A DNA stretch of 64,000 nucleotides. Source: Sphingomonadales bacterium. GTDB taxonomy: Bacteria; Pseudomonadota; Alphaproteobacteria; Sphingomonadales; Sphingomonadaceae. Numbering within the stretch: position 1 is the first letter of the stretch; every line of letters begins with the position of its first letter. The DNA lies in contig JAQGKX010000109.1 in the NCBI GenBank assembly GCA_028289885.1, positions 1 through 64,000 on the forward strand. The letters are read 5' to 3'. The position numbers and the translations under genes were made by a program. This document shows, in pieces, positions 2,772 to 30,035 of the stretch. Under the pieces are notes generated by a model, which had not been told where the DNA came from, did not search any database, and saw only the letters and a program-made list of their open reading frames with translations.

Positions 2772-2780
2772 TACCCAAGC

Positions 2781-8318: not shown

Positions 8319-8675
8319 GAGACCCCTTTCAGTTTTTCTCCGAACCGTTCTTTTATTCGGATAAAATAATGGTGCCTTAACCTTTATTAGAGATATTCGA
8401 TCCACCATTGCTGTTAACCAAGCCATAGAATCGTGTGTTTTCGCGAAAAAGTCTTGCGAATCGCGCAGTTTGACTTGCGCAATATCATTTGATGGATTTT
8501 TGTAGCCTGCCGGGCGCAGTTGTTGCGCCGATCTGGGATTGCAGTTCAAAAAATATTCGCGCTTCCCGAGCAGGAACCTAAACAGTTCCAATTTAACACT
8601 TATTGCATTTTGGCTGGGAAAAACGGCTAACGATCGAGCGGCCAGAATGCGACGTCTGGTAGCGCACATGAGTAA

Positions 8676-9428: not shown

Positions 9429-9447
9429 TCCGGCGTCGCTTGCATAG

Positions 9448-12048
9448 CTAGGCCGGGGCTGCGGTGTCCCCACCCATTCGGGCACAACTGAGGTCCGGCC
9501 ATGCAGAGACGGGCGCAGGGCCCGCATATTTCGTGGCAGCAAGTCCACCGATTGCTCCGACCCTTGCGGCCCCGGCATATTTCACATCCGCCCTTGTGCG
9601 CTGCGCTGTGAGGAGGTGATCGCTTATGACCGCGGCCAGTCGGGCAACATGGGGCGGACGGATCATCGTTTCGTGATCGCCCGATGTGCGGACGACCTCG
9701 AGGGAGCCGCGCGTCTTTCCCCGCCAGCCGCCGTCGTTTGGTGACTGTGGCGCGTCCGTCGCCCGGATGAGCAGTGTATCGCCATCGAAAATGCGCGCGA
9801 CGTGGCGGCAAAGCGCATTCTCCACGCGCTGGCTGAAACTTTGCGGGCCTTTTGATTCTGTCGGGTGAAAGATATTACGGACCTGGGACAGTCCCGATCG
9901 CAGGATCTCGCGTGGGCTCGGGGCGGTCGGCACGGTGGCGTCGAGCAACACGAGTAACGCCACGTCCTGCCCATCGTCGCGCAACTGACAGGCAAGTTCG
10001 TGCGCAACGACCCCCCAGCGACACCAGCCGCCGATATAATAGGGGCCCTCGGGCTGAGCCTTCATCAGATGCCCGCGCAACGTTGTCGCCGTGGAGACGA
10101 TGTCGATCGCATCTCTGCTCAGCCGGGCTTCGTCGTCCTTGGTCAGATTGAGACCATAAATCGGCTGCTCCGGGGCGGCGCCGCGCGCCATGCCGCGTAT
10201 CAGTGGCCCGGCATCGAGCCAGTAGAGCGGGGGACGATCGCCCCCGGCGTTAAGCAACATCGTCGAACTGGATGGAGCGAGGTTTCCGTCGACCACCAGA
10301 GCCGCCATCGCGGAAAGCGTCGATGACCGCATGAGATCGGCAATCTCGAGAATGCGGCCAAAATCCTGCTCGATGCGACGGAGCAGACGCACGGTGATCA
10401 GCGAATAACCGCCCAGATCGAAAAAATCATCGTCCCGCGCAACATCCGCTACGCCAAGAAGTTCGCACCAGATGGTGGCCATCCCACGCTCGACATCATT
10501 GTCATAGGTCGAAGTCGACGCGATCGGGGCGGCATCGACGGGACTGGGCAGGGCGTTGCGGTCGACCTTGCCATTGGGAGTCATCGGCAATTCGACCATC
10601 GGTACGATCCGGGTCGGGATCATATAGGGTGGCAGGGTGTCCGCGAGAAAAGTTTTCACGTCGTTTGTCGGCAACGCCCCTCCGGGACGCGCCACGACGT
10701 AACCGACAAGCACATTTTCGCCGGTGGGGTCCTGCCAGACACGGGCTGCGCACCACGCGATATGTGGATGGGCCGCGAGCGCACTTTCGATATCGCCGAG
10801 TTCGATGCGGAACCCGCGCACCTTGACCTGATCGTCGCGGCGACCAAGGCAATAGATCGACCCATCGGGATCGAGGCGGCCGAGGTCGCCGGTCCGATAG
10901 ACCGGCATCCCATCGTCGAGCCGGGCAAATCGGTCAGCCGTAAGGACCGGGGCGTTGCGATAGCCACGCGCGACGCCGGGGCCACCGATGACGATCTCGC
11001 CGATTTCGCCGGCGGGCATTTCGGTAAGATCGTCGTCGGCAATCATGACCGTCGCGCCGTCGATCGGGCGACCGATCGCAACCGGCCCCGTGCCGACAGT
11101 AACCCGCTCTATCGTTGCCCATACCGTCGCTTCGGTGGGGCCATAGATGTTCCAGAGTTCGCCGCAGCAGGGCAACAGCCGATTGGCGAGATCGCGGGTC
11201 ATCGCCTCGCCACCGCAAAGCGCGCGCATCTGCGGACATCCGGTCCAGCCCCATTCAAGCAGTGCGCGCCACGTCGCCGGGGTCGCCTGCATCATATCGG
11301 GTGTGTGCAGGGCAATCGCTGCGGCCAGTCGGCGCGGATCGGCCGCATCGTTCAGATCGAGCAGGACAAGACGTGCGCCGACACCGAGCGCCAAAAAGAT
11401 ATCGGCGACCGAAATGTCGAAGCTCAGCCGCGTCAGTGCCAACAGCGTTTCGCCCCGACTCAATCCCGGCGAACGGGCCATCCCGTCGATAAGGGTGACG
11501 ATACCGCCATGGGTGATCTCGACGCCCTTTGGCTGCCCCGTCGATCCCGACGTATACATAACGTAGGCGAGATCGTGCGGCATCGTGTCAGCGGGCGATG
11601 CGACAGGGGGCGATGCGACAGGGTGATGATGGTCCGCTCCCTCTTCGTCCGCGTCGATCACAGCGAGTTCGTTCGCGGGAAGACGTCCGGCCAGCGTCCG
11701 GCTGGCGATCACGAAAGCGGGGTTCGCACCGTCGATCACCTGGGCAATGCGGGCGGCGGGCAGCATGGGATCGATCGGAAGATAGGCCGCGCCCAGCTTG
11801 AAAATGGCGAGCAGCCAGGCCGGCAAATCCACCGTGCGTTCGAGGCAGACGGCAACGAGCATTCCCCGTTCCGGCAGGAGGGGAGCGAGACGTGCGGCGA
11901 GTTCGTCGACGCGCGCCACCAGTTCGGCATAGGACAAGCTCGTGTCGCGCGCGCAGACGGCGATGCTTTCGGGGTAGCGTTCGGCCGCAAGTCTTACGCG
12001 CGCGAGGATCGACGTACTCTTTATTTTTTCGTTAGCGTCCTGCTGCAC
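9448..12048 (-). CDS. NRPS-like protein: adenylation - peptidyl carrier - thioesterase, no condensation domain
   Basis: YTSGSTGQPKGVEITH (A3), NIYGPTEATVWAT (A5), YRTGDLGRL (A7), GRRDDQVKVRGFRIELGDIE (A8), PNGKVDRNAL (A10), PCP FFDLGGYSLITVRLLRRI, TE YYIGGWCRWGVVAHELACQL and GDHETMI. Confidence 0.92.
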   Translation of the reverse strand: MQQDANEKIKSTSILARVRLAAERYPESIAVCARDTSLSYAELVARVDELAARLAPLLPERGMLVAVCLERTVDLPAWLLAIFKLGAAYLPIDPMLPAARIAQVIDGANPAFVIASRTLAGRLPANELAVIDADEEGADHHHPVASPPVASPADTMPHDLAYVMYTSGSTGQPKGVEITHGGIVTLIDGMARSPGLSRGETLLALTRLSFDISVADIFLALGVGARLVLLDLNDAADPRRLAAAIALHTPDMMQATPATWRALLEWGWTGCPQMRALCGGEAMTRDLANRLLPCCGELWNIYGPTEATVWATIERVTVGTGPVAIGRPIDGATVMIADDDLTEMPAGEIGEIVIGGPGVARGYRNAPVLTADRFARLDDGMPVYRTGDLGRLDPDGSIYCLGRRDDQVKVRGFRIELGDIESALAAHPHIAWCAARVWQDPTGENVLVGYVVARPGGALPTNDVKTFLADTLPPYMIPTRIVPMVELPMTPNGKVDRNALPSPVDAAPIASTSTYDNDVERGMATIWCELLGVADVARDDDFFDLGGYSLITVRLLRRIEQDFGRILEIADLMRSSTLSAMAALVVDGNLAPSSSTMLLNAGGDRPPLYWLDAGPLIRGMARGAAPEQPIYGLNLTKDDEARLSRDAIDIVSTATTLRGHLMKAQPEGPYYIGGWCRWGVVAHELACQLRDDGQDVALLVLLDATVPTAPSPREILRSGLSQVRNIFHPTESKGPQSFSQRVENALCRHVARIFDGDTLLIRATDAPQSPNDGGWRGKTRGSLEVVRTSGDHETMIRPPHVARLAAVISDHLLTAQRTRADVKYAGAARVGAIGGLAATKYAGPAPVSAWPDLSCARMGGDTAAPA

Positions 12049-12162
12049 GGCACTGTCCCCCGGAATGTCCGCTTGATGCCGACCGTCTCATATTCGGTAG
12101 AATTAGGTGTGCCGTTTCGTCTTTTGATAATTAAGGGTGGGAAAAGTGCGCTACCGTAACGG

Positions 12163-13314
12163 ATGCTCATGCAAGCGCTTGAAGACGGGACCGAGGGTCG
12201 ACCACAACCGACCTTACCGGTGACAGGGCGCCTGTTCATCAACGGCAAATTCTATAGCGGGGCAATGAACGGCGTCCACCGCGTGGCCGACAGGCTTCTG
12301 CGGGAGCTCGATGCTTTGGCCGTTGCACGAGAGCGTCCGGCCGGATGGGATATGCGCCTGCTGGTGCCAGCAACCGATCATTGGGCACCGTCGTTCAAGG
12401 CTATTCGCACCGTTCCACAGCGGTTCGGGCATTCGCAGCTTTGGGAACAGGCCATACTGCCCTTTGCGGCACGATCGGGCGCGCTGGCATCCTTCGCCAA
12501 TCTCGCGCCCAAGGGTCATTCGCGCAAGCTGACCATGGTTCACGACGCGCAGTTCCGTCTGTCGCCCGAATCCTATCCTGCCAAACTTCGCCTGGGTTAC
12601 CGCGTGCTCATCCCGCGCGGCGCAAGGAGCAGCCGCGTCGTCCTGACGGTGTCGGACTATGCCCGCGATAGTCTGATGACGTTCGGGATCGCCGACGCCG
12701 GCCGGACTGCCGTTCTTTATAACGGTGCCGATCATATCCTCGAACTGCCTGCCGATGGTGGATTCCCCACAAGTCGCGGACTGGTGACAGGCGGTTATTG
12801 CGTCGTGTTCGGGTCGGTTGCGCGTTATAAAAATCTCGCGGTGGTTTTTGATGCATTTCGCCGTCACGCGCTGGCCGATATGAAGCTGGCTGTCATCGGA
12901 TCTTCGCGGGAGACTCTCGAAGCGGCCGGCCTCGCCCCTCCACCGCAAGCCGTCTTCGTCGGCCCCATCGACGATGCCGCGCTCCGTGCGCTGTACGAAA
13001 ACGCCCATTGCCTCGTCTATCCTTCGCGAACCGAAGGGTTCGGACTGCCGCCCGTAGAGGCGATGTTGTGCGGGTGCCCGGTCGTCGCCGCCCCGGCGGG
13101 CGCGGTGCCGGAAATTTGCAGGGATGCGATCCTCTATGCCGGTATGGACGACGCCGATGACTGGGCTTCCCAGATCGTTGCGCTCGGGGCCGGGCAGGGG
13201 TTGAGAGCAGCAAAGATCGCCGGTGGCCGGGTCCGTGCTTCGGCGTTCACATGGGCGGCGGCGGGAGCAAGACTTGCGCAAATACTGACACCGCTGGTGG
13301 AGCAGCGTGGTTAG
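12163..13314 (+). CDS. Glycosyltransferase family 4-type (GT-B)
   Basis: VFGSVARYKNLAVVFDAF..., YPSRTEGFGLPPVEAMLCGCPVVAAPAGAVPEIC. Confidence 0.85.
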   Translation: MLMQALEDGTEGRPQPTLPVTGRLFINGKFYSGAMNGVHRVADRLLRELDALAVARERPAGWDMRLLVPATDHWAPSFKAIRTVPQRFGHSQLWEQAILPFAARSGALASFANLAPKGHSRKLTMVHDAQFRLSPESYPAKLRLGYRVLIPRGARSSRVVLTVSDYARDSLMTFGIADAGRTAVLYNGADHILELPADGGFPTSRGLVTGGYCVVFGSVARYKNLAVVFDAFRRHALADMKLAVIGSSRETLEAAGLAPPPQAVFVGPIDDAALRALYENAHCLVYPSRTEGFGLPPVEAMLCGCPVVAAPAGAVPEICRDAILYAGMDDADDWASQIVALGAGQGLRAAKIAGGRVRASAFTWAAAGARLAQILTPLVEQRG

Positions 13315-14534
13315 GCGCGCGCGTGCAGATCGAGGCTCCATGTCTCGGCGGCCAGTTCGACAATCCGGGTTGCGTGACGGTCGGCGGATAAAAAATCGGC
13401 AAAGGCCACCCAGTCCTGAACCATCGTTTCGCGTGAGCTAGCTTCGGTCGCCAGCATATGGGCGAGCTTGCGCTCAAGGTCGCCCGGGGTCGAGGGATCA
13501 AAGAACATGCCCCCGCCGAACCGCTCGATGAGTTCGGCGGACCCGGCCCGGCAGGACACAAGCACGGGCACCCCGGCCTGCATGGCTTCGGGTACGACAA
13601 GGCCCCAGGTTTCGGGCCAGAGCGAGGGCAGGACGATGACGCGGCACGATCGCATGGCCTCGGCAATCGTGTCGCGTGGCTGCCAGTGGCGCAATTCGAG
13701 TCGCGGGCGTGAGGCAATCGTTTCGACGAAAGCGCCCTCGCCGACGAACAAGCCTGAAAGGTTCAGGCGGTCGGCCGTGTCGATCAGATCGGCCAGGCCT
13801 TTTTCCGGTTCGAGACGACCGAAATAACCGAAGTCGAAGCGAGGTTCGGCGGGCGGCGGACGATCGGTGATGCGCAGTGGATTGTGCAGGATCGCGTGCC
13901 GGTCATCGGGCATCAATCGCGATGCCGTCCCATGCGAATGTTTGGATATGCTGAGGAACAGCCGATTGTCTGTCGGACTCCGGGTCACCGCGCGCAGGGC
14001 TGCGTGACGTACCAGCCTGCCAATCTTGTGCGCCCGCCCGTTGCGATCGCAATTCGCGGCGACGCATCGGACGCCCATCGGTTGCCGGTCGCAAGGAGTG
14101 CCTTGCCGGAAATCATAATAGGCACCGTTCGGGCATGGCCAGAAATAATCATGCATATAGACCATCACCCGGAACCGCCCGAGCAGGCCGATCGAGGAGG
14201 GGGTCAGGGCGCGCGTCCATTGATGCAGGATGATGATGGTGCGATCGGGGTCTTCGCCGGCTAGCAGGATGGCCAGAGCTTCGCGCGCGCGTGGGTTATA
14301 GATCGCAAGCGCGGCTCCTGTCGGACCGGCCTCGCGAAGATCGACGCTGCCTAGCGACGCGAACCGATCGGGGTCGACGTCGGGCATGCCACCGAAAGCG
14401 GCGATGATGCGGACATCGACACCCTTGGCGCGTAATGCCCTGAAGCTGTCGAGCGCCGCGTGGCCCGCCCCGCCGCTGGCCGCGGTATCACCGCCGACGT
14501 AATCCGAAAGGATAATCGCCTTTGCGCTACGCAT
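13311..14534 (-). CDS. Glycosyltransferase (GT4-type)
   Basis: FGYFGRLEPEKGLADLIDTADRL..., VLPSLWPETWGLVVPEAMQAGVPVLVSCRAGSAELI; start set at internal ATG (MRSAKAIILSDYVGGDTA). Confidence 0.85.
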   Translation of the reverse strand: MRSAKAIILSDYVGGDTAASGGAGHAALDSFRALRAKGVDVRIIAAFGGMPDVDPDRFASLGSVDLREAGPTGAALAIYNPRAREALAILLAGEDPDRTIIILHQWTRALTPSSIGLLGRFRVMVYMHDYFWPCPNGAYYDFRQGTPCDRQPMGVRCVAANCDRNGRAHKIGRLVRHAALRAVTRSPTDNRLFLSISKHSHGTASRLMPDDRHAILHNPLRITDRPPPAEPRFDFGYFGRLEPEKGLADLIDTADRLNLSGLFVGEGAFVETIASRPRLELRHWQPRDTIAEAMRSCRVIVLPSLWPETWGLVVPEAMQAGVPVLVSCRAGSAELIERFGGGMFFDPSTPGDLERKLAHMLATEASSRETMVQDWVAFADFLSADRHATRIVELAAETWSLDLHARA

Positions 14535-15645
14535 GCACTGCTTCGTGGACGTCGGGGGCTGCGATCGAAGCTGTCCGATCATATTCTGCATAGAGCTGGG
14601 CGAGTTGCCGGTTGAGGCGGGCGGCGGTGAACAGAGCGAGATAGCGTTCGCGCCCGGCGCGTCCCATCGCTTTCCATTGTTCCCTGGTGCCGCTCGACAG
14701 CGCATGGCCCAGCCGTTCGGGATAATCGGGTGGAACCAGCCGACCGGTTTCGCCGTCCACGACGATTTCGCGCAAGCCGCCGACGTCGGAGGCAACGACC
14801 GCGCATCCCCCACGCATCGCTTCGAGTGCGACCAGCCCAAACCCCTCCCAGCGAGAAGGAACCGCGACGACGTCGGCGGCTGCAATCTCACTCGCCACCT
14901 CGAATAGCGATCTCCAGCCGAGATATTCCACCTGGCTGCGCCCGCGCCGGGCACTCGCCGGACCGGCAATCGCCTTGCCGACCACCCGGACGGCAATCTC
15001 CTTGGCAAAAGGCTCGATGGCGTCGAGCAAGGTGTCGAACCCTTTCTGGTGATCGAGCCGCCCGACGAACAGGACTTTCAGCCGTGAGTCGTCCCATCGT
15101 GACGGTCGCGCCGGTACTATGTCCGTAATCCCGTTCAGGATCAGCACCAGCTTTCCCTCGGGGATGCCAATCGCCAGCCCGGCCTGCCGTTCATGCTCCG
15201 AAATGACGATGATCCGTGCGCACCATTCGGCCAGCGTGCGCTCGATCAAGGCGGCCACGCGGTTCTTCAGCGCGCTCGTCCGTCGGTCGAATCCCCATCC
15301 GTGTGGGCAATAGAGGATGACGAACGGCATCTTGCGCCATCCATACATCAGCCGGACGACGGCACCGGCAAAGCTCGAATGGACGTGGATGATGGACGGC
15401 CTGAAGCGACGGACTTCGGTTCGAACGGCAAACGCCAGACGAAGGAGTGCCCCAAGCGATCGGTCGCGCCGCCGCCAGCTATGAACCATATGCCGATCAA
15501 CCCCGCTCAGGTGCGAAGCATGGTTGTCGGGTACGATGATCCTGACACCATCCACGCCCAGCATATTCTGCTGGAAGGGCAGTATTTCAGAAAGATAAGT
15601 GCCGACGCCGCCCTTTGCGGATTCAGCGATGTGAAGAATTTTCAT
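14527..15645 (-). CDS. Glycosyltransferase (GT4-type)
   Basis: MKILHIAESAKGGVGTYLSEIL..., LFVGRLDHQKGFDTLLDAI, VPSRWEGFGLVALEAMRGGCAVVASDVGGLREIV. Confidence 0.87.
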   Translation of the reverse strand: MKILHIAESAKGGVGTYLSEILPFQQNMLGVDGVRIIVPDNHASHLSGVDRHMVHSWRRRDRSLGALLRLAFAVRTEVRRFRPSIIHVHSSFAGAVVRLMYGWRKMPFVILYCPHGWGFDRRTSALKNRVAALIERTLAEWCARIIVISEHERQAGLAIGIPEGKLVLILNGITDIVPARPSRWDDSRLKVLFVGRLDHQKGFDTLLDAIEPFAKEIAVRVVGKAIAGPASARRGRSQVEYLGWRSLFEVASEIAAADVVAVPSRWEGFGLVALEAMRGGCAVVASDVGGLREIVVDGETGRLVPPDYPERLGHALSSGTREQWKAMGRAGRERYLALFTAARLNRQLAQLYAEYDRTASIAAPDVHEAVHA

Positions 15646-15749
15646 TCGGATTCCTGGCCCCAAGGCTGGTCCGATTGTGGAAGATGAAGGCCAATTCGTG
15701 TGCATCAAATGATAGGATGCGAACCGTAGTGTCGTGCTTCACATCGCGA

Positions 15750-16925
15750 ATGGACAAGTCTGGACAATATTTGGCCGACGGCGCCACGGGGACCACCGCC
15801 CCGTCGCCCAGCCAGACGCTCTGGACGGTGCAATGGATGCGCGCGGCGGCGGCATTGATGATCATCGTCGGCCACAGTGGGGGCGCGGTCGCCAATATCG
15901 CGGAGCAGGGGCGTGCTGGTTTTACCCGCCCCAACATCCTGCCATGGGGCGCAGGGGTCGATCTCTTTTTCGTCATCTCCGGCTTCATCATGGTGCATGC
16001 TTCCCGTCGTCTGTTTGGCCAGCCGAATGCCACCGCCGAGTTCCTGAAACGGCGGCTGACGCGCATCATCCCACTATACTGGCTCACGACGTCGCTGTTC
16101 CTGGCGATCCTCGCGGCGGCTACCCTGAAAGGGGGTGACCTGTTTCCCAGCGGAACGGCCATATTGGCCTCTTATTTGTTCATCCCGTTCGATAGTTACG
16201 GCGATGGACGCGCCTTTCCGGTGTTCGATCTTGGCTGGACGCTGAATTACGAGATGTTCTTCTATGCATTGTTTGCGCTGACGGTCTGGCTGCCCCGTGC
16301 GCGCGCAATGACGATGCTTGCCGTGCTGCTGCTGGTGGCAATCGCCATCGGCAACTTTGTCCCTCACTCGTTGAACCCGGCTTATTTCTGGACGCGCCCG
16401 ATCCTTATCGACTTCGGGCTTGGCATCGGAGTCGGCATGATCGTCGCGCGTGGCGTAACGCTGAGCAAGCCATTGCGCCTGATCATGGCTTTTGGCGGAA
16501 TCGTGTTCGTCGCCCTCGATCCCATGCATCTGTTCAACGGGCCGATCGGAACGACCGTCGCGAACGAGTGGCCGCGCGTGCTATATTCGGGGGTGCCCGT
16601 GAGCATAGCGCTTGCCGGAGCCGTACTGGGCCCTGAACCGCGCGCACATCGCGCGCTCTGGCCATTAACCCTGCTTGGCGATGCGTCCTATTCGCTGTAC
16701 CTCTTTCATCCCTTCTCGCTGATCCTCATGGAGAAACTGGTTCAGAAGTCGCCCCGGATCGCGTCGCTCGACGGCCATTTGCTGCTCGGGGCCACGGTCA
16801 CGACGGCGATCGTTTCCGCGCTGTTCGCCTATCATTTCATCGAGCGCCCCATGACGCGCAGGCTCAATGCTTGGCTAGCCGAGGGGCGTGCAAAAAGACA
16901 TGTGCGCGTCGCTGCGGACTCATAG
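15750..16925 (+). CDS. Acyltransferase family 3 (membrane O-acyltransferase)
   Basis: WTVQWMRAAAALMIIVGHSGG, FFVISGFIMVHASRRLF, FLKRRLTRIIPLYWL; multi-TM. ORF is open from 15615; start at 15717 or 15750 more likely. Confidence 0.85.
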   Translation: MDKSGQYLADGATGTTAPSPSQTLWTVQWMRAAAALMIIVGHSGGAVANIAEQGRAGFTRPNILPWGAGVDLFFVISGFIMVHASRRLFGQPNATAEFLKRRLTRIIPLYWLTTSLFLAILAAATLKGGDLFPSGTAILASYLFIPFDSYGDGRAFPVFDLGWTLNYEMFFYALFALTVWLPRARAMTMLAVLLLVAIAIGNFVPHSLNPAYFWTRPILIDFGLGIGVGMIVARGVTLSKPLRLIMAFGGIVFVALDPMHLFNGPIGTTVANEWPRVLYSGVPVSIALAGAVLGPEPRAHRALWPLTLLGDASYSLYLFHPFSLILMEKLVQKSPRIASLDGHLLLGATVTTAIVSALFAYHFIERPMTRRLNAWLAEGRAKRHVRVAADS

Positions 16926-16966
16926 CGGCAATCCCATCGCCCGCGACGTTCCTTTGCTCCTATCGT

Positions 16967-18412
16967 TCAGGTGTTCGCTGCCGGTTCGGGACGTTGCATC
17001 AACACGGCAATGACGTTGCGAATATGCGGTCGCTGTATCGCATAGCTTGCCAAGACGACGAAACCGTAGATCGCGGTGGCCGCGGTCCAGTGGAGCCAGT
17101 TGGAGAATGTGAAACCCGTGGTCAACGCAACAGCGGTGAGCGCCACGACAGTGCCAAGCACCGCCGGAGCAAGCGCGCGCAACAGGCGCGGCCAGCTAAG
17201 GCCGGTAAGCGCGACGATCATCCACAGAAAAGCAATGCTCAGGACGGTGATGACCACGGCATAGGCCTTTACGAGCGCCAGCAGGCCGAAAGGGAGGGCA
17301 ATGACGAACGTCGCGACGATGACAATGGTGTTGACGATGGTCAGCGCGAATTGCGCCCGCGCCTTGCCCGCGACCATCAGCAAGACGCCATTGTACGACG
17401 CGATCGATTGCAGTGCGCCGGCGGGGGCAAGCCACGCAACGATTTCGGGTACATGGCTCCAGCGATCCGAGAGCAGCGCACCGACCGGAAACGACAGGCC
17501 GAAGGTGAGAAAAAACATTGCCGGAACGGTGAGCATCGCGGTCGCCGACAGTACGCTTTCGACCATTCGGCGCGCCTTTTCGCCATGGGGGTCTTCGTTG
17601 CGCAATGTCGCCAGCAATATGGCACTGGTCGGCCATGTAATCGCCATCAACGGTGCCAGCATGAACTGGTAGGACAGGCCGTAAACTCCCACCGCCGCCG
17701 CGCCCAGCCACGCCCCGATGAGGATGTTGTCGCTGTTGCGCGCGACGAAATTGAGCAGGTTGGTGGCAAGTACCCATCCGCCGAACGACAATAGTTCGCC
17801 GAGTTGCCGAAGCCGGGTGTTGGGTGCCAGTTCGTGGCGGGCCAGCCAGCCAAAGGATGCCGCACGCAGGCCGTGATTGATCAAATTATAGAGCACGAGC
17901 GACCAGACGCCCGCACCATGCCACGCGGCGAACAGTCCTATCACTGCGGCGATTGCGATAGCGGCGGCCTCGATCGCGGCGATGCGACCATAACGCAACT
18001 GCCGTTCCAGCAAAGCGCGCGGCGTCGATGCGGTGACACTGAAGATGACGACAACCGCCATGCCCAGCATCACAGGCGCAAGTCCCGCCATGCCGATCAC
18101 TCGCTGCAGCGGGTAGGCAAGGACCGCCAGCAGCGCCGCACAACCGACCCCGCCCATCACCATCGCCACAAATGCCGCCCCGGCCTCGTCCCGGGTGACG
18201 ACCGGCGCGCGGGTGATTGCACTCGTCATGCCGAGGTCGGTTAGCATCGCGATCAGGACCACGAACGGCGTCGTGAAAACGACCAGCCCGTAATCGCCCG
18301 GCGTGATGAACGCGGCGATCGCGATGTTCATCCCAAACTGTACCGCATTGCGATACAGGCTGAGCCCCGACATCGATAACATGGACTTGCCGAGCACGAG
18401 GGCCTCCTTCAA
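16967..18412 (-). CDS. Oligosaccharide flippase family protein (Wzx-like)
   Basis: ~12 TM hydrophobic protein with ALVLGKSMLSMSGLSLYRNAVQFGMNIAIAAFITPGDYGLVVF and RNSDNILIGAWLGAAAVGVYGLSYQF. Confidence 0.85.
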   Translation of the reverse strand: MKEALVLGKSMLSMSGLSLYRNAVQFGMNIAIAAFITPGDYGLVVFTTPFVVLIAMLTDLGMTSAITRAPVVTRDEAGAAFVAMVMGGVGCAALLAVLAYPLQRVIGMAGLAPVMLGMAVVVIFSVTASTPRALLERQLRYGRIAAIEAAAIAIAAVIGLFAAWHGAGVWSLVLYNLINHGLRAASFGWLARHELAPNTRLRQLGELLSFGGWVLATNLLNFVARNSDNILIGAWLGAAAVGVYGLSYQFMLAPLMAITWPTSAILLATLRNEDPHGEKARRMVESVLSATAMLTVPAMFFLTFGLSFPVGALLSDRWSHVPEIVAWLAPAGALQSIASYNGVLLMVAGKARAQFALTIVNTIVIVATFVIALPFGLLALVKAYAVVITVLSIAFLWMIVALTGLSWPRLLRALAPAVLGTVVALTAVALTTGFTFSNWLHWTAATAIYGFVVLASYAIQRPHIRNVIAVLMQRPEPAANT

Positions 18413-18512: not shown

Positions 18513-20015
18513 GTGATGACGACATCGACATTCGACTTGTCCGATCCATATTCGGATACCCCGGTGACGCGCGGGTCATTGCGGATTGGTGAAGCCTTTG
18601 CTTTTGCCGCCTTGCTTGCGGTCAACTGGTCGTTCGCCAATGCGGTGCCAAGCTCGCTATTTTCCTTTACGTCTATGCTTCTGTTCGCATGGCTGCTGCT
18701 TATCGTTGGGCGGATGACGGCGGCGGGGCTCATCCTGCTTCTCCCCCTTATCATCACACGCGGCGCGACGCTGCTGTCGTTGCTGGTGATCGAGGCGGGG
18801 GCCTATATGCCAGAGGTCAATCGGCTGGGCGAGCCGGGCGATGCCAGCGCTTCGTTCGTGGCATTTACCAGCCTGTTTTTCCTCATCTTCGCACTGGTGT
18901 TTCGCCAGTTCGAGCGGCCATTCATTGCCTATGCGCGTTCGCCGCTGCTCGACCGGGTGGTCGGCTTGCTTGGATGGCCGGTCGTCCTGGTATGCATGGC
19001 CTGTGGCGCGGTTGCGTTCCTGCATGGCTTGCAGAGCGGGTTCCCTTTGCTCGCAGGGATCGACCGGTTCCTGTATCGGCGTGAATATAGCAGCGGGGTC
19101 GTGCTGATCCTGCTCGACAACAAATTCCTCTTTTCGGCGGTGCTCGGTGCGGTCGCCTTCGCTCCGCGCTTTGCGCCACTGCTCAAACCGGCAGCCATGA
19201 TGACATTCGTCGGCCTGACCGGACTGTATTTCCTGTTCGGCGACAAATTCTTCACGATCCTTTCGGAAGTGGCGTTCTTCATGATGCCGCTGCTGCTCCA
19301 AAGGCAGGGGCGGCTGGCCGGGACGCTGATCCGCATCGCGCCGCTGGCGATCGCGCTGCTGTGCGGATCGTTGGGCGCGACGCTGTATATCTATTCGGGC
19401 TATGGTCGGTTGCCGCTCGACCGAACCACGGCGTTGGTGGGCGAACGTATCGCAGGGCAGGGTGAATTGTGGTTCGTGGCGTCGCGTGATGCCCGCCGCG
19501 TGACCAACTGGGATCAGCAATTGGTCGATCGCAACATTGCCGTGCTCGACGACAAAACGCCTCCCGCATCGGCCTTCGCGAACGGGGTGGAGACCTATTA
19601 TTTCGTCCAGCATTACGCGCCCGCCAAACTCGCGGCCAGCTTTCGCAAAAATCAGGGATGGGTCCAGTTGACGATGGGGACCGAGGCCATGGCGCTCGTC
19701 ATGTTCGGTTATGTGGGGGTGGCCGTCATCATGGCCTTCCTCGGCGTGCTCGTCGCATTCTCGGCACTGTATTTGCGTCGCGCGTTTGCATCGGGGTTCC
19801 CGCTCAGCCTTTTCTTCGCCGTCTGGACCAGCCTGCAGGTATACTTCGCCACCCAGCAGGCTTCGCTGTGGACCATCGGTGCGCCGGGGCAATTCAACCG
19901 GCTGCTGTTGTTCGTGACGTTTGAAATCATATTGCTGGCCATCAATCGCGCCCAGATCATGGCGGCTTTCTCCCGCAATCGCGCCGCCGACTTTTCGGGG
20001 GGGCGGGCGATATGA
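18513..20015 (+). CDS. Putative Wzy-like polysaccharide polymerase (multi-TM)
   Basis: ~11 hydrophobic segments with a large soluble loop; located between flippase and glycosyltransferases. Confidence 0.6.
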   Translation: MMTTSTFDLSDPYSDTPVTRGSLRIGEAFAFAALLAVNWSFANAVPSSLFSFTSMLLFAWLLLIVGRMTAAGLILLLPLIITRGATLLSLLVIEAGAYMPEVNRLGEPGDASASFVAFTSLFFLIFALVFRQFERPFIAYARSPLLDRVVGLLGWPVVLVCMACGAVAFLHGLQSGFPLLAGIDRFLYRREYSSGVVLILLDNKFLFSAVLGAVAFAPRFAPLLKPAAMMTFVGLTGLYFLFGDKFFTILSEVAFFMMPLLLQRQGRLAGTLIRIAPLAIALLCGSLGATLYIYSGYGRLPLDRTTALVGERIAGQGELWFVASRDARRVTNWDQQLVDRNIAVLDDKTPPASAFANGVETYYFVQHYAPAKLAASFRKNQGWVQLTMGTEAMALVMFGYVGVAVIMAFLGVLVAFSALYLRRAFASGFPLSLFFAVWTSLQVYFATQQASLWTIGAPGQFNRLLLFVTFEIILLAINRAQIMAAFSRNRAADFSGGRAI

Positions 20016-21043
20016 TTACCCGGCGGACGGTGGTGGCCGGGGGGCTGACGCTTGCGATGTCCGGCGCGGTGCCCGGTGCGCTGATCGCCGCGCCGCGCCG
20101 TCGTCAGCGTGAGGTGCTTGCCTTTTATTATCCGTGGTATGCGACGCCTGCGGTTAGCGGTCGCTGGTTCCACTGGCAGGGACCCAACAACGAGGCTCCC
20201 CGTCAAAGTCCGACCCTCGACCATCCGACGCTCGGCTTTTACGACAGCCACGACCGCGCCGTCATCGAAACTCACGCGCGTCAGGCCAAGGCGGCCGGCA
20301 TCACGGCGATGATCGTCAGCTGGTGGGGGCAGGGTTCGTTCGAGAATAAGGCGATGCCCGCGATCCTCGACGCCCTCCACGCGCAGGGCATCAAGGCGAC
20401 AATCTATTTCGAGCAGCAGAAAGACGGGCAGGCGGGTGCCGACCGCGATGTCGCCTACGTCACGAGGACCTATGCCAGCCATCCAGCGTGGTTGAAGGTC
20501 GGGCAACGTCCGGTGATGTTCCTGTACCTGCAGGCGTTGCGCGAACTGTCGGCAAGCGGGTGGCGAAGCGCCGCAGACCATGCGGGAGCGGGCAAGGCAA
20601 AACCCTTTCTGGTCGGGGACATCAGCCCGCGCGAAACCGAAAAGTTCGCCGCATGGGCACCTTCTGTGGACGGTATTCATGTCTATGTTCTCGCGCCCTA
20701 TGTCCGTGGCATGACGCCGCAGCAGATGACGGCATGGGCCGACCGGACCTATCCGGCATGGAAGCGGATGATCGGCAACAAGCTGTTCTGCGCGACCGTG
20801 ATTCCGGGTTTCGACGATACGCGCGTACCCGGACGGCCTCAGCCTCGGCCGACGGTGGCGCGGCATGACGGCCAGACCTATCAGGCGCTGTGGGATGCGG
20901 CGATCAGGCATGATGCCGACTGGGTGCTAATCACGTCGTTCAACGAATGGCATGAAGGTTCGGAGATCGAGCCTTCGCGTGAATATGGTACGCGATACCT
21001 CCAGATGACGGCTGTGAATGCCCGCCGTTTCCTGCGCGGCTGA
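20012..21043 (+). CDS. GH99-like glycoside hydrolase with putative Tat-type signal
   Basis: MITRRTVVAGGLTLAMSGAVPGALIAAPRRR; VLAFYYPWYATP, ITAMIVSWWGQGSFENKAM, ITSFNEWHEGSEIEPSREYGTRYL. Confidence 0.8.
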   Translation: MITRRTVVAGGLTLAMSGAVPGALIAAPRRRQREVLAFYYPWYATPAVSGRWFHWQGPNNEAPRQSPTLDHPTLGFYDSHDRAVIETHARQAKAAGITAMIVSWWGQGSFENKAMPAILDALHAQGIKATIYFEQQKDGQAGADRDVAYVTRTYASHPAWLKVGQRPVMFLYLQALRELSASGWRSAADHAGAGKAKPFLVGDISPRETEKFAAWAPSVDGIHVYVLAPYVRGMTPQQMTAWADRTYPAWKRMIGNKLFCATVIPGFDDTRVPGRPQPRPTVARHDGQTYQALWDAAIRHDADWVLITSFNEWHEGSEIEPSREYGTRYLQMTAVNARRFLRG

Positions 21044-21047
21044 CCTT

Positions 21048-22253
21048 ATGCGTATCTTGCACGTGAGTTCGGTTTATCCACCGCATGTCGTCGGCGGCGC
21101 GGAGAAGGTCGTCGAAATGCTGGCCGAGGCGCAGGTGGCGCGCGGGCATCAGGTCGCCGCCGCCTATCTAACGCGCGACGAACAGCCGACCGGCGTCCGC
21201 CACGGCGTCACGGTGTTTCCACAGGAGAGCCGCAATCTCGTGTGGATGGAGGACGTGTTCCGCCAGCCACGCATAAAGCGGACCGCCAACAAGCTGGGCC
21301 AGATGATCAATTACAGCGGGGCGCATGATTTTCGCGGGGCGATGCGCAAGTTCAAGCCCGACATCGTCCATACGCATTCGATGGTCGAACTGCCGCCGAT
21401 GATCTGGTCGCACGTCGCGGCGAGCGGCGCGAAGGCGGTGCATACGCTCCACGATTACGATCTTCTCTGTTCACGTGCTTCGATGTTCCGCAATGGCCGT
21501 TCGTGCGAGGGGCAGCATGCTTCGTGTCGCGTCACTTCGTTGTGGAAGGGGCATTTCGCCAGGACCATCGATGCGGTGGCCGCCGTTTCCGCGCCGGTCC
21601 TTGCCGAGCATAGACGCTTTGGAATGTTCGAAGACATGCCCTCGGCTCGGGCGCGGGTGATCTGGAATGCGGTGGCCGAGCGCACGGGCGGTGTGCCGGA
21701 ACGTCGCGCGAGGTCGGGCGATTTCATATTCGGGTTCCTTGGACGGCTGGTTCCCGAAAAGGGCATCACGACCCTGATCGAAGCGTGCCACTTTCTGCCA
21801 CCGGACGGCTGGCGTCTGGCAGTTGCGGGACGCGCGCAGGAAGGCGACCATGTTTACCGCGGGCAGGCGGGCGATCTCCCGATCGATTTCCTCGGCTTCA
21901 CCAACCCGCGCGCGTTTCTCGACTCGATCGATATGCTGGTCGTGCCATCGATCTGGCGCGAGCCTTTCGGGCTAACGGTGGTCGAGGCGTTTGCGCAGGG
22001 TGTGCCGGTGATTGGTTCCGATCTCGGCGCGATAGCTGACCTTGTCGGATCGGTCGGCAAGGAGTGGCTCGTGCCACCTGCCGATAAGGATGCGCTGGCG
22101 AGCCGTATGATCGACGTGCTGAAAAGGGGGCGGGATAGCCTGCCTTCGCCCGAGTCTTTTGCGCCAGTGCTCGATGCGGTGAAGCTCGATCGGATGGTCG
22201 ATGCCTATGACTCGCTCTACGCCGATACGCTCGCGCTGGACCGTGCCGCATGA
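21048..22253 (+). CDS. Glycosyltransferase family 4
   Basis: MRILHVSSVYPPHVVGGAEKVVEMLAEAQ; FGFLGRLVPEKGITTLIEA; PSIWREPFGLTVVEAFAQGVPVIGSDLGAI. Confidence 0.9.
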   Translation: MRILHVSSVYPPHVVGGAEKVVEMLAEAQVARGHQVAAAYLTRDEQPTGVRHGVTVFPQESRNLVWMEDVFRQPRIKRTANKLGQMINYSGAHDFRGAMRKFKPDIVHTHSMVELPPMIWSHVAASGAKAVHTLHDYDLLCSRASMFRNGRSCEGQHASCRVTSLWKGHFARTIDAVAAVSAPVLAEHRRFGMFEDMPSARARVIWNAVAERTGGVPERRARSGDFIFGFLGRLVPEKGITTLIEACHFLPPDGWRLAVAGRAQEGDHVYRGQAGDLPIDFLGFTNPRAFLDSIDMLVVPSIWREPFGLTVVEAFAQGVPVIGSDLGAIADLVGSVGKEWLVPPADKDALASRMIDVLKRGRDSLPSPESFAPVLDAVKLDRMVDAYDSLYADTLALDRAA

Positions 22254-23482
22254 CCCGGCCCTTGCGCGTGCTCCACCTCAGCAGCTTATACCCTCCGCAT
22301 ATCGTCGGTGGGGCGGAGCGATCGGTCAGCATGTTGGCGGAAGCGCAGGTGGCTGCGGGGTGGGACGTTGCCGCCGCCTGCCTGACGCCGGGCGAGGAAA
22401 AGGAAGAAGAGCGGAACGGCGTGTCGGTGTTTCGCATGCCACACGGGAACGACTTCTGGCTCGAGGACTGGACTCTGCATTCCCAGCGCGCGCGCGAATG
22501 GGCCAAGTTTAAGCAACAGGCCAATTTCGGGATCGAGCGCCGGTTCGGTGCGGTGATCGACCGGTTCAAGCCTGACATCATCAACACTCATTCGATGGTC
22601 GACATCTCGACGCGCGTTTGGCACGCCGCCAAAAAGCGTGGCGTTCCGATCGTCCATACGCTGCGGGACTTTGATCTGCTTTGCGCCGCCAGTTCAATGT
22701 ATCGTGAGAGCGGTCCCTGTTCGCACCGGCACCTGAAATGCCGCGTGCTGACGTTCACCAAGCAGTTCGACCAGAAACTCGTGTCGGCAGTGACCGCCGT
22801 TGGCAACGAAGTGCTCCAGCGCCATCTGGACTATGGTTTTTTCGACCATGTCCCGCAGGATTTGCGTCGCGTAATCTGGAATACCGCAAATGTTGCGGGG
22901 ATCGACAGCGACTATGTCCGACCGCCGCGAAAGGGGCCGGTGACGTTCGGCTATCTTGGGCGAATCAGCCCCGAAAAGGGTGTCGATGTCCTGCTAAAAG
23001 CCTTGCGCCTGTTGCCGCCGGACGGATGGCGACTGCTGATCGCGGGTAGCGCTCCCGGCGATATCGCGCCGTTCGAGGAGATGGCAAAGGGATTGCCGGT
23101 GACCTTCCTAGGGTTTGCGACTCCAAAGGCGCTTTTCGAACAAATCGACATGCTGGTCGCGCCTTCGCTATGGGCGGAGCCGCTCGGGCGAACCGTCCTC
23201 GAGGCGTATCAGGCGCATGTGCCGGTCATCGGATCGCGCAGTGGCGGCATTGCGGAGATCATTGCGGACGATGAATGGCTGGTAACCCCGGGCGACGTGA
23301 ACGCACTAGCAGACCGCATGGCTCAGGTTCTTCGCGAAGGACTTGGCAGGGATGGGCGTAACGGCTCACCGGCTGGCCGCGACCGCGTCGTCCGTCGGAC
23401 TACGCCCGAAGCCGTGGCGGACGGCTTTGCACGGATCTACGCCGACGTTCTCGAGCGTAAGCCCTTGGAATCTCAAATCTAA
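22250..23482 (+). CDS. Glycosyltransferase family 4 (paralogue of preceding gene)
   Basis: LRVLHLSSLYPPHIVGGAERSVSMLAEAQVA; FGYLGRISPEKGVDVLLKAL; APSLWAEPLGRTVLEAYQAHVPVIGSRSGGIAEI. Confidence 0.9.
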   Translation: MTRPLRVLHLSSLYPPHIVGGAERSVSMLAEAQVAAGWDVAAACLTPGEEKEEERNGVSVFRMPHGNDFWLEDWTLHSQRAREWAKFKQQANFGIERRFGAVIDRFKPDIINTHSMVDISTRVWHAAKKRGVPIVHTLRDFDLLCAASSMYRESGPCSHRHLKCRVLTFTKQFDQKLVSAVTAVGNEVLQRHLDYGFFDHVPQDLRRVIWNTANVAGIDSDYVRPPRKGPVTFGYLGRISPEKGVDVLLKALRLLPPDGWRLLIAGSAPGDIAPFEEMAKGLPVTFLGFATPKALFEQIDMLVAPSLWAEPLGRTVLEAYQAHVPVIGSRSGGIAEIIADDEWLVTPGDVNALADRMAQVLREGLGRDGRNGSPAGRDRVVRRTTPEAVADGFARIYADVLERKPLESQI

Positions 23483-24126
23483 TAGGCTCCACGCGCAGTT
23501 ATCACGCTGCGTGCGGTCCCGGCAAGGATTTGCAGGTATAATTTGGGGGTAAGCTGCCGGGCCAGCACGCTATCCATCGCGACTCGTCGGCGATATCCGA
23601 CTTCGTTGCGTCCGCTGATTTGCCAAATGCCGGTTACCCCGGGTCGGACCGAGCAATAGGTCTGGAAATGCTTTCCGTAGCGGCTGACCTCTGCCGCAAC
23701 GATCGGTCGTGGACCGACAAGGCTCATTTCCCCCCGCAGCACGTTGAAAAGCTGTGGCAGTTCATCGAGACTCGTTTTGCGTATGAAGCGACCGACGCGC
23801 GTCACGCGGGGATCGTCGCGCAATTTGTGATCGCGGTTCCATTCGGCCCTCGCCTCCGGATCGCTGGCAAGGACGCGGGCGAGGCGGACATCCGCATCGG
23901 CCGCCATCGACCGGAACTTGTAGCACAGGAACGTGCGGCCACCCCGTCCATAGCGCCGGTGGGCAAAAATCGACGAGCGACCGTCCTGCAACCGAATTGC
24001 CAGCATCGTGAACAACATCAATGGAGCGAGGCACGCGATCATGCCGACGGCGACCCCGAAATCGAGGGTTCGTATCATCGCCTCGGTGGATGCGCGTGGC
24101 CGCGCGAAGACTTTACCAAACTTCAT
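23479..24126 (-). CDS. Undecaprenyl-phosphate sugar phosphotransferase (initiating sugar transferase)
   Basis: [70 protein letters not shown]. Confidence 0.93.
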
Positions 24127-24456
24127 CGATCAACTCGCTCTCACAGATTTACTGCAATACGAACGACACCGATTTTATGGTTTATCCAATGTTAACGTTT
24201 TCATTTAGGCACACACGAAGTGTCCCAAAAAATATCAAAAGATAAATTTTTCGTAAATTCCAGAGTTTTTATAACCTAGGATAAGGAACCAGAATCCAGA
24301 CCGCGGATAAAGCAACTTCTCAACCTGATTGCGTCGGGTTGCCCTAAATGTTCGACCAAAGACTGTCATTGAAAGGTGATCTGCCGGTTTGGTGCTTCAT
24401 GCGCCATCCGAGGACTGTGTTTTTCCTTTTTCAGTCATATGACAATGGAGGTTGTA
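24127..24456. promoter_or_regulatory. Divergent intergenic region between sugar transferase and export gene, visibly AT-rich
   Basis: Runs such as aaaaaatatcaaaagataaatttttcgtaaattc in a GC-rich background between divergent genes; no specific box assigned. Confidence 0.5.
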
Positions 24457-25035
24457 ATGAGATTCGCCAGTATCGCAGCAACAATCGCGATGATTACTTT
24501 AAGCGGATGCGCGTCCAGCGGGAGTCGTCTTGACAGCGGCGTGGCTGCGACGAACGTTGGCCCAGCTCCGACTTACAATTATGCCCTGGCCGGCGGCGAC
24601 AAGTTGCGCGTCATAGTATTCGGAGAGCCGACGCTCGGCGGCGATTTCGTGGTTGGGGGCTCCGGTTACATCGGATTGCCGCTGATCGGAGAGGTTCAGG
24701 CTTCGGGTCTGACATCAACCGATCTTCAGGCCCGCATCGCTAGCAAACTTACCGAGGGCGATTACATCAAAGAGCCGCGGGTCGTTGTCGAAGTCCTGTC
24801 CGCGCGACCGTATTACATCCTGGGCGAAGTGAACAAACCCGGTGAATATCCCTATTCCAACGGGATGACCGTTGAATCGGCGGTGGCCCAGGCGGGTGGT
24901 TATACGTATCGCGCAACCACCAAGGCGGTGTTGATCAAGCACGCCGGTGAAAGCGTGCCGCGTGAATATTCGCTGTCGTCTGCCACTGCGGTCGCTCCCG
25001 GTGACATTATTCGCGTTCGGGAGCGCTGGTTTTGA
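24457..25035 (+). CDS. Polysaccharide biosynthesis/export lipoprotein (Wza/GumB-like)
   Basis: Lipobox ITLSGCASS; YALAGGDKLRVIVFGEPTLGGDFVVGGSGYIGLPLIGEVQASGLTSTDLQARIASKL; YYILGEVNKPGEYPYSNGMTVESAVAQAGG. Confidence 0.93.
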   Translation: MRFASIAATIAMITLSGCASSGSRLDSGVAATNVGPAPTYNYALAGGDKLRVIVFGEPTLGGDFVVGGSGYIGLPLIGEVQASGLTSTDLQARIASKLTEGDYIKEPRVVVEVLSARPYYILGEVNKPGEYPYSNGMTVESAVAQAGGYTYRATTKAVLIKHAGESVPREYSLSSATAVAPGDIIRVRERWF

Positions 25036-26369
25036 GCCCGAGAGTCTTGCGCAAATGCGCACTCGGCACATTTCTGACGCCCATTGCCTGCCTGTTCGGG
25101 CAGCCGGTCGATGCGCAACTTCTTCAGGATGCCCAGACCGTGGTCATCCCAAACGAGCCGCCGCTCACGACACAGCGATCGGTCTTCGCGCGCGACAGTA
25201 CGGTTCCGGTGGGTGAACGGATGCTGCCAGCCCTGTCCGCGCAGGGTTTGAAGCTGGGCAATTTCGACCTGTTCCCCGGTCTTTCGATCGGTGGCCTGTA
25301 CACGTCCAACGTGTTCGCGAACAACGACCGCAAACACAGCGATTTCGCCGTCGTGGTGCGGCCCGAAGCGACGCTGCGGACTGTTGGGGGTCCTTATGAT
25401 CTGGAACTCTATGCGCGCGGCGATTTCCGTCGGTATGCACAATATGTCAGTGAAGACACCGAGGAAGGCATGGGCGGCTTCAAGGGGTCGGTCGCGATAG
25501 GGCCGCTCAGCAGCCTGACGGCGGGTGCCGACTACGGGTCATATATCGATCCCCGGTTCGCGTCCGATTCGCCGGTCGACGCTGCCAAACCGCTTGAGTA
25601 CCGGGCACTGAATGGCTTCGTCGGTGCCACGATCGAGGGATCGACGACGCGCGTCATCGCACGCGCCGATATCACCCAGCTCCGGTTCAGCGATACGCCG
25701 AGGATCGGTGGCGGGACCATCAATGCACAGGACCGCGACCGGACACGTTACGCGGGGTTGGTCAGGGTCGAACGGTCATTCGGGCCGGGGCTTTCCTTCT
25801 ACGTCGCCGGAACCGCCAACAAAATCGACTATCGTTTCCTGTCGGGCGGCGTGTTGCAACGCGATTCGTCGGGTTTCGGGGCCTATCTCGGGGCCAGCTT
25901 CGACGTGACGCGCCTGATCCGGGGTGATGTACGGGTGGGTTATATCCGGCAGAAGTTCAATCTGCCGGGCGTTCGTGCCATCTCCGGGATCGGCGCGCTC
26001 GGCAACGTGTCCTATTTTCCGAACGGATTGTGGACCTTTACCGCGCGGGGCGAGAGTAGCGTCCAGGATAGCGGCGTACCCGGAACAGCGGGATATCTTC
26101 ACCGTGGCGGGTCGATAAGCGCCGACCACGAACTCCGTCGATACCTGATCGCCAGTCTCGAAGGCGGGTATTACCAGGACACTTATCGTGGCCTCGACCG
26201 GCGCGACAAACTGCCTTTCGCCGAGGTCAGCGCAACCTATCTCTCGCACAACCATTGGAATGCCCGTCTCGGCTATCGCTACATCGCGCGTCATTGCGGC
26301 GGCTGCTCGGGCGGGATTTCGAGTTACGACGATCATCGCATTTCCGCGACACTCACCTTTCAATATTGA
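25032..26369 (+). CDS. Outer membrane beta-barrel protein of the EPS locus
   Basis: Signal-like N-terminus, alternating beta pattern, ends DDHRISATLTFQY. Confidence 0.75.
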   Translation: MSPRVLRKCALGTFLTPIACLFGQPVDAQLLQDAQTVVIPNEPPLTTQRSVFARDSTVPVGERMLPALSAQGLKLGNFDLFPGLSIGGLYTSNVFANNDRKHSDFAVVVRPEATLRTVGGPYDLELYARGDFRRYAQYVSEDTEEGMGGFKGSVAIGPLSSLTAGADYGSYIDPRFASDSPVDAAKPLEYRALNGFVGATIEGSTTRVIARADITQLRFSDTPRIGGGTINAQDRDRTRYAGLVRVERSFGPGLSFYVAGTANKIDYRFLSGGVLQRDSSGFGAYLGASFDVTRLIRGDVRVGYIRQKFNLPGVRAISGIGALGNVSYFPNGLWTFTARGESSVQDSGVPGTAGYLHRGGSISADHELRRYLIASLEGGYYQDTYRGLDRRDKLPFAEVSATYLSHNHWNARLGYRYIARHCGGCSGGISSYDDHRISATLTFQY

Positions 26370-28588: not shown

Positions 28589-29401
28589 ATGGATATGAGT
28601 GCATCACCCCGCCTGCCGAACAGCGAAGCGCGGAGCATCGGCGCGGCGATCGGCAGCGAACTCCTGCTGCGACGGCTCCGTGCGCTGGCGGATCTCAGCC
28701 CCGTCGAGATCGACCTGATCCTGTCGCTTAACGAAGGTGCAAAGACCCATGCGCCGGGTTCGCTGATCTGCCCGAAAAGCGACGGCAGCCCGTATCCGCG
28801 GCTGATCGCATCGGGCTGGGCGTGCCGTCCGCGTATCCTGCCCGACGGCCGTCGCCAGATGCTCGGCGTGTTGCTGCCCGGTGATCTGATCGGCGACCGT
28901 GGCGAAAGGCGACCGCTGGCGATGTGCCCGGCGGTTGCGCTGACGACGGTCCGCACGGTCAGCGCAACCAAGCTGTACGATGCTCTCAACCACCAGCCCG
29001 AATCATATCCCAACCTTGCGGCGGCACTGGTGCGGGTCAGTAGGATCGAGGAGAACCAGCTGCTCGATCACATCGTGCGTCTCGGTTGCCAGACCGCCTT
29101 GCAGCGTATCGCGCACTGCCTGATGGAACTTCATTCGCGGCTGGCGGCGATCGGTTTCATCTCTGGCAACACTTTTCCTATGCCGCTCACGCAGGAGACA
29201 CTGGGCGATTTGCTGGGGCTGAGTCTCGTTCATGTGAATCGGATCATGTCGCAGTTGAAGCGGGAAGGGCTCGTGCGCGTCCGTTCGGGTGTGGCGGTCG
29301 TTCAGGACTTTGGCGCGCTGGCGCTGTTGGCGGATCGTATCGACCCGAACGCGCCGCCCGAGCAGGCACGATCCAATGTCCATGCTCTCCGGGATTATTG
29401 A
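28589..29401 (+). CDS. Crp/Fnr family transcriptional regulator
   Basis: C-terminal HTH LTQETLGDLLGLSLVHVNRIMSQLKREGLVRV. Confidence 0.85.
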   Translation: MDMSASPRLPNSEARSIGAAIGSELLLRRLRALADLSPVEIDLILSLNEGAKTHAPGSLICPKSDGSPYPRLIASGWACRPRILPDGRRQMLGVLLPGDLIGDRGERRPLAMCPAVALTTVRTVSATKLYDALNHQPESYPNLAAALVRVSRIEENQLLDHIVRLGCQTALQRIAHCLMELHSRLAAIGFISGNTFPMPLTQETLGDLLGLSLVHVNRIMSQLKREGLVRVRSGVAVVQDFGALALLADRIDPNAPPEQARSNVHALRDY

Positions 29402-30035
29402 AGACCTTCGGATTCTGCGATGTAACCGGCTAGCCGATCATCCTGATATCATCGAATTTGCTCCGGTGGCGCAGGGCGTCGTCGTTTACATGACATCCCG
29501 AAGTGCCAGCGGTGACGCCAAACCGTCCCGCACGTTGCTCGGCCATGCCTTGAGGATTCGCTATGGCAGTGCCGCCGAACCGTGTTTTGTAACATCCGGT
29601 CATGGCCAGCCGCTCATCGAACGTGGCAAAGTGCCCTGCACTTACAGCACGAGCGCGACCGGTGATGATCTGGCGGTCGCCATTACCGAACGCGGAAGGA
29701 TCGGCATCGATATGGAAACAGCCGATCGCATTGCCATGAACGCGACCAAAAATGACCGCTGGTTGTCCGATGACGAGCGTGCGGCGATCGCTACGCTAAA
29801 TGGCGACAGCCTTGTCACCGAACTGGCCTGCCGATGGGTTCTGAAGGAAGCCTATGGCAAAGCCCGCGGGGTCGGCCTTAACTATGCGCTTGCCGACGTG
29901 ACGTTTCAAGAATGCGGTGGCCGGGTGCACGCGCTTGCGTCACGTTCGCCCGAAGCCGAAAGAGTTGCAGCATTCGACTTCGCACTTTTTCGCTATGGTT
30001 CGTTGGTGATCGGCCTGGCGCAAACGCACCTTTAA
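29376..30035 (+). CDS. 4'-phosphopantetheinyl transferase (Sfp-type)
   Basis: RIGIDMETADRIAMN and CRWVLKEAYGKARGVGL match PPTase motifs; start overlaps upstream Crp/Fnr gene. Confidence 0.85.
   Translation: MSMLSGIIEDLRILRCNRLADHPDIIEFAPVAQGVVVYMTSRSASGDAKPSRTLLGHALRIRYGSAAEPCFVTSGHGQPLIERGKVPCTYSTSATGDDLAVAITERGRIGIDMETADRIAMNATKNDRWLSDDERAAIATLNGDSLVTELACRWVLKEAYGKARGVGLNYALADVTFQECGGRVHALASRSPEAERVAAFDFALFRYGSLVIGLAQTHL

Follow-up and report, generated by a model that had tools for sequence, protein, structure and literature searches.

The window, meaning the whole stretch of 64,000 nucleotides analysed here, belongs to a 3.08-Mb MAG (G000; 84% complete, 6.2% contamination). It carries an EPS locus in which one NRPS-like protein, composed of an adenylation (A), a carrier (T) and a thioesterase (TE) domain and termed A-T-TE below, is encoded next to glycosyltransferase (GT), flippase, polymerase-like and export genes and shares the locus with a phosphopantetheinyl transferase (PPTase). 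The features, with the evidence for each, are as follows.

9448..12048, minus strand: A-T-TE protein, 866 aa, with a GTG start at 12048 (ORF, Pfam/NCBIfam, orthologue alignment)
10567..11988, minus strand: adenylation domain, aa 21-494, pocket code DIAQLGIV(W)K, predicted glycine (Pfam, code comparison)
10294..10479, minus strand: carrier (T/PCP) domain, aa 524-585, with an intact FFDLGGYSL Ser motif (Pfam, orthologue alignment)
9604..10248, minus strand: thioesterase domain, approximately aa 601-815, Cys676-Asp703-His792, short lid (Pfam, alignment, AlphaFold model)
12049..12162, no strand: divergent intergenic region of 114 nt common to A-T-TE and the GT at 12163 (divergent arrangement in 4/4 loci)
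12163..13314, plus strand: GT4-type glycosyltransferase (Pfam; 69-75% identical in S. zeae and CROZ)
13311..15008, minus strand: GT4-type glycosyltransferase, true start probably downstream of the ORF start (Pfam, synteny)
14527..15708, minus strand: GT4-type glycosyltransferase (Pfam, synteny)
15615..16925, plus strand: AT3 (Acyl_transf_3) membrane acyltransferase (Pfam, synteny)
16967..18412, minus strand: Wzx-type flippase (Polysacc_synt_3) (Pfam, synteny)
18513..20015, plus strand: DUF6418 Wzy-like polymerase (Pfam; G000 is the only one of 401 family genomes in which it was found)
20012..21043, plus strand: GH99/WbsX-like protein (Pfam, synteny)
21018..22253, plus strand: glycosyltransferase (Pfam, synteny)
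22250..23482, plus strand: glycosyltransferase (Pfam, synteny)
23479..24126, minus strand: initiating sugar-phosphate transferase (Bac_transf) (Pfam, synteny)
24376..25035, plus strand: Wza-like export protein (Pfam, synteny)
25032..26369, plus strand: BBP2_2 outer-membrane porin (Pfam, synteny)
26385..28580, plus strand: Wzz/Wzc-type co-polymerase with a BY-kinase-like domain (Pfam, synteny)
28589..29401, plus strand: Crp-family regulator, overlapping the PPTase start (Pfam, synteny)
29376..30035, plus strand: phosphopantetheinyl transferase of Sfp-like size with a degenerate N-terminal half, closing the wza-porin-wzc-crp operon (Pfam, motifs, synteny)

An earlier note on this DNA had described a complete A-carrier-TE protein without a condensation domain at 9448-12048, neighbouring glycosyltransferase, flippase and polymerase genes, and a PPTase at 29376-30035 in the same locus; all three descriptions were borne out. 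A-T-TE is an intact ORF with Pfam matches that all exceed the cut-off (AMP-binding 21-363, AMP-binding_C 420-494, PP-binding 524-585 and Thioesterase 649-716), and it scored 385.9 bits against the NCBIfam amino-acid adenylation model TIGR01733 (cut-off 317.4). No Condensation domain was found in the protein by Pfam. Among the neighbours, Pfam identified the glycosyltransferases (five of GT4 type across the locus), the Polysacc_synt_3 flippase and the DUF6418 protein, which its gene context suggests would act as Wzy. Together with the initiating transferase, Wza and Wzc, these genes place the locus in the Wzx/Wzy type. The PPTase matched PF01648 at 44.2 bits (cut-off 25) and contains the catalytic motifs GxDxE and WxxKEAxxK; its length of ~220 aa, the position of PF01648 in the C-terminal half and the GxDxE and KEA motifs assign it to the Sfp type, although a direct comparison with Sfp gives only a weak match (E 0.56).

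To the left of A-T-TE, a subtilase-family gene (485-2752) adjoins a gene for a 1,962-aa autotransporter-like protein (2781-8669), and both are ~95% conserved in a second contig of the MAG, C13 (L003). This contig repeats the locus (compared with window 719-18944) at 83-89% DNA identity, and the MAG therefore probably mixes two related species, with the C13 copy most likely representing a second co-binned population. Further relatives were sought with a TE-alignment scan that used one genome per species, and this revealed two close matches, Sphingomonas sp. CROZ-RG-20F-R02-07 (CROZ) and Sphingomonas zeae DSM 100049. A-T-TE lies beside the same EPS genes in four genomes (the window, the C13 population, S. 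zeae and CROZ), two of these four loci coming from one mixed MAG. The gene order in CROZ and S. zeae runs from A-T-TE, divergent to a GT, through further GTs, AT3, flippase, polymerase, initiating transferase and Wza to porin (missed by the gene caller in CROZ), Wzc, Crp, PPTase, a gene without an assigned family and a ferritin-like gene. The last two correspond to window 30448-31587 (no Pfam family, 68-76% conserved) and 31693-32694. A conserved gene with weak methyltransferase resemblance (L003 16300-17004) is present between AT3 and flippase in C13, CROZ and S. zeae, and is missing at this position in the window (16925-16967). The locus had also been credited with several acyltransferases; one of these, AT3 (15615-16925), belongs to the conserved block, whereas for a second (34221-35357) no counterpart was detected in the stretches annotated in CROZ and S. 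zeae.

Most syntenic proteins of CROZ and S. zeae were 55-81% identical to those of the window. The lowest identities between A-T-TE orthologues were ~59% for the A domain and ~46% for the TE, and the PPTases were the least conserved of the syntenic proteins (41-44% identity), with the KEA motif reading REA in S. zeae. The PPTase follows the Wza-porin-Wzc-Crp operon in 3/3 loci where the contig reaches; the C13 contig stops short of the PPTase position, so this linkage could be assessed in three loci only. Among 401 family genomes A-T-TE, like the locus Wzy, was found only in G000, and both occur in the two named isolates. Other matches of the A-T-TE search lay in frames of 1325-2034 aa, and those examined encode C-A-T-TE or two-module NRPS proteins. 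A plasmid search gave only matches below 60% identity, and the matches listed carried generic NRPS/adenylation annotations. As a control we analysed 10 other sphingomonad EPS loci, picked by Wzc similarity alone; the 10-20 kb covered per locus contained no adenylation ORF and no PPTase motif. The gene-for-gene synteny and the control loci without both genes, small sets in each case, indicate that A-T-TE and the PPTase belong to this EPS type. On this comparison of gene order, the tie of both genes to EPS proposed in the earlier note is well supported.

Two other candidate markers were rejected. When the Crp gene at 28589 was used as a marker of related EPS loci, its nine best family matches were generic Crp paralogues without EPS neighbours. 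A putative shared motif of the divergent region, TTAATTATCAAA, was present in the window and C13, but only partly in CROZ, and its frequency in the window was no higher than chance; we therefore make no regulon claim for it.

The syntenic C13 copy has an ATG at the aligned position, which supports the GTG start of A-T-TE. Comparison of the two copies gave dN/dS values of ~0.11 (A), ~0.11 (T) and ~0.09 (TE), against 0.39 for the C-terminal tail. Judged from these ratios, A, T and TE are three working domains under purifying selection, followed by a loose tail, and values of ~0.1 combined with synteny in four genomes argue against a chance arrangement. Across the ten usual positions, the pocket code reads D-I-A-Q-L-G-I-V-W-(K) in the window and C13 copies, D-L-I-Q-L-G-V-V-W in CROZ and D-L-P-Q-L-G-I-V-W in S. 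zeae. By this comparison the code resembles the published glycine codes DILQLGMIWK (PMC12283262) and DILQLGVI (PMC5466765). Positions 236 (I/L) and 239 (A, I, P) differ among the four orthologues, so glycine is a prediction only; it is probably the substrate, and alanine may be an alternative. Among solved proteins the nearest in sequence is LgrA, the second module of which activates glycine. A fungal-type A-T-TE joining aryl acids was ruled out by the glycine-like code.

The TE nucleophile is a cysteine (GGWCRWG), and Cys676, Asp703 and His792 were invariant in an alignment of the four orthologues. Cys-TEs are the less common kind of thioesterase. Neither this cysteine nor the glycine-like pocket code featured in the earlier note. 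An AlphaFold model of the TE (pLDDT 83, alignment of 12 sequences) placed the cysteine at the nucleophile elbow joining strand 83-88 to helix 90-104, the aspartate after strand 109-115 and the histidine in the loop after strand 196-201, with a short and poorly predicted lid; its best matches in the PDB were NRPS, PKS and FAS thioesterases. As judged by alignment and model, the triad is intact.

Based on these findings we infer that A-T-TE may aminoacylate EPS. We put at about even the chances that it is a dedicated aminoacylation module of the Wzx/Wzy-type EPS locus, with its Cys-TE passing a glycyl group to an EPS precursor. The locus PPTase would activate the carrier, the A domain would activate glycine with ATP and load it, and Cys676 would accept the glycyl group. 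An EPS building block (a nucleotide sugar or an undecaprenyl-linked unit) would then receive this group from the TE on an amine or a hydroxyl, while still in the cytoplasm and before flipping and polymerisation. The TE is the simplest transferase, since neither a condensation domain nor an MBOAT was found in the MAG, absence calls on which are weak given its 84% completeness, and no second or separate carrier was seen in the locus. Neighbours typed by Pfam included no AlmG- or DltB-like partner, and we recognised neither an amino-sugar pathway nor an enzyme for the acceptor side in the EPS locus. The fuller version of this proposal, in which a fused A-T-CysTE glycyl donor-transferase aminoacylates the EPS precursor on the cytoplasmic side, is served by a PPTase of its own encoded in the export operon and needs no separate acyltransferase for the acceptor, is put forward more tentatively, as a reading somewhat short of even chances.

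Individual steps of the proposal have parallels elsewhere. The FrsA TE passes an acyl group on to the hydroxyl of another molecule, and FrsA and Sln9 both exemplify an NRPS-attached transesterifying TE acting on a separate acceptor (PMC7794379); these enzymes, however, serve small-molecule pathways, and in the case of FrsA the module includes a C domain and the acceptor is a depsipeptide. LgnA and CmaE shuttle aminoacyl groups (PMC8748450), moving them off the loading carrier, but they do so as stand-alone proteins and pass them to a second carrier, and no such carrier was seen in the EPS locus. Amino acids are known substituents of bacterial surface glycans, including glycine in, for example, S. 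dysenteriae D7 and E. coli O91 (PMC10609480).

We also examined the relationship of A-T-TE to other NRPS proteins. In an A-domain tree the four A-T-TE proteins formed one clade (100/100), joined to sphingomonad C-A-T-TE proteins (100/99). These closest homologues found (for example those of L050, L041 and L053) share with A-T-TE a Cys nucleophile (GGWCTSG) and a glycine-type code (DILQLGMIW), but have a condensation domain and a replaced triad Asp, and lie in P450/MFS clusters outside the EPS locus. In L050, checked by Pfam, the C-A-T-TE gene stands alongside genes for an A-T protein, a P450, a PPTase and an MFS transporter, and from their gene content such clusters look like small-molecule pathways. 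The tree and this cluster context suggest that the EPS-tied A-T-TE shares ancestry with a small-molecule-type module; A-T-TE itself has no condensation domain, and the tree gives no direction to the change. The grouping of A-T protein, P450 (checked in L050) and C-A(Gly)-T-TE with a Cys nucleophile and replaced Asp recurs in L040-L045, L050, L052-L054 and L095, followed by a PPTase in L050, L054 and L095; we found no description of this cluster in openly licensed papers. An EntF-like siderophore module was rejected as a model, the G010 and G015 relatives having a Ser-TE motif and a long N-terminal extension. A two-module NRPS (A-T-C-A-T-TE; L179 13637-19732, minus strand, and L180, G256:C1:1928637-1953000) with a Ser-TE motif and a glycine-like second A code (DILQLGLIW) is surrounded by glycosyltransferase, flippase, initiating transferase, Wza, porin and Wzc genes of a different EPS locus, and is a possible second NRPS-EPS case.

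This ancestry bears on the alternative that survives best, namely that the module serves, wholly or in part, the synthesis of a small diffusible molecule (a signal, or a siderophore-like or protease-inhibitor-like compound) and merely lies beside, or is perhaps co-regulated with, the EPS genes. It is consistent with the nearest relatives residing in A-T/P450/PPTase/MFS clusters, and with the Cys-TEs of ObiF and SulM, which make small strained rings (PMC11298585). The ObiF1 and SulM domains resemble that of A-T-TE in being type I TEs with a Cys nucleophile, but they form a beta-lactone or beta-lactam, against which the neighbourhood of A-T-TE and its absent C domain argue. The lack of a condensation domain in the MAG and of tailoring or transport genes beside A-T-TE, the absence of a partner with which glycine alone could cyclise, the location of the orthologues in the EPS locus in 4/4 cases and the position of the PPTase inside the export operon make this alternative unlikely. 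Homologues away from polysaccharide genes and tied to a small molecule, raised in the earlier note as a point against an EPS role, thus exist in the sister C-A-T-TE clade but not among the four A-T-TE orthologues.

A further alternative, which we rate as rather improbable, is a relay resembling AlmEFG or Dlt, in which A-T-TE does no more than charge the carrier, and movement of the aminoacyl group across the membrane, to the periplasmic polymer face, falls to the TE or to a membrane acyltransferase such as AT3 (15615-16925). AlmE-AlmF-AlmG adds glycine to lipid A (PMC12930378), and the AT3 gene is present in 4/4 loci. AT3 enzymes tested in vitro, however, use acyl-CoA (PMC9558356), the MAG has no MBOAT/DltB and the locus no separate carrier or AlmG-like gene, and a relay leaves the retention of the Cys-TE triad unexplained. 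The suggestion that AT3 is the acceptor-side enzyme found no support in view of this acyl-CoA use and of the possible transferase that A-T-TE has in its own Cys-TE; the AT3 protein could be an ordinary acetyltransferase. A-T-TE may work like AlmEFG of Vibrio cholerae in that carrier-bound glycine would be meant for a surface glycoconjugate, but AlmE, AlmF and AlmG are separate proteins, whereas A, T and TE are fused here. Like DltABCD of Gram-positive bacteria, it would adenylate a small amino acid and load it onto a carrier for use on an envelope polymer, but DltB/MBOAT and DltD are missing and the DltA model scored 266.2 bits against a cut-off of 559.85. A-T-TE is thus an analogue of Alm and Dlt in logic and a member of neither family.

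It is very unlikely that A-T-TE acts on EPS while the locus PPTase chiefly serves another carrier. A carboxylic acid reductase-like protein of the same MAG (AMP-binding, PP-binding, NAD_binding_4, that is A-T-R; L005 4411-7971, G000:C11) may be another client, but the PPTase is syntenic with A-T-TE in 3/3 loci and absent from the 10 control EPS loci. Least probable of all is that the TE is a hydrolase and A-T-TE an editing, idling or decaying C-A-T-TE remnant without a current product, for although the sister position of C-A-T-TE in the A-domain tree is compatible with C-domain loss, all motifs are intact in four diverged copies, dN/dS is ~0.1 in every domain and the PPTase is retained in the locus.

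In openly licensed papers we found no sphingomonad EPS locus described as containing an NRPS-like module. The proposed transfer of glycine by A-T-TE to an EPS precursor suggests that bacterial surface sugars may acquire an amino acid by a route not described before. If true, it would provide a genetically marked NRPS-like route to amino-acid-decorated polysaccharides, with a named isolate, S. zeae DSM 100049, carrying the locus, and a possible tool for adding amines to industrial polysaccharides.
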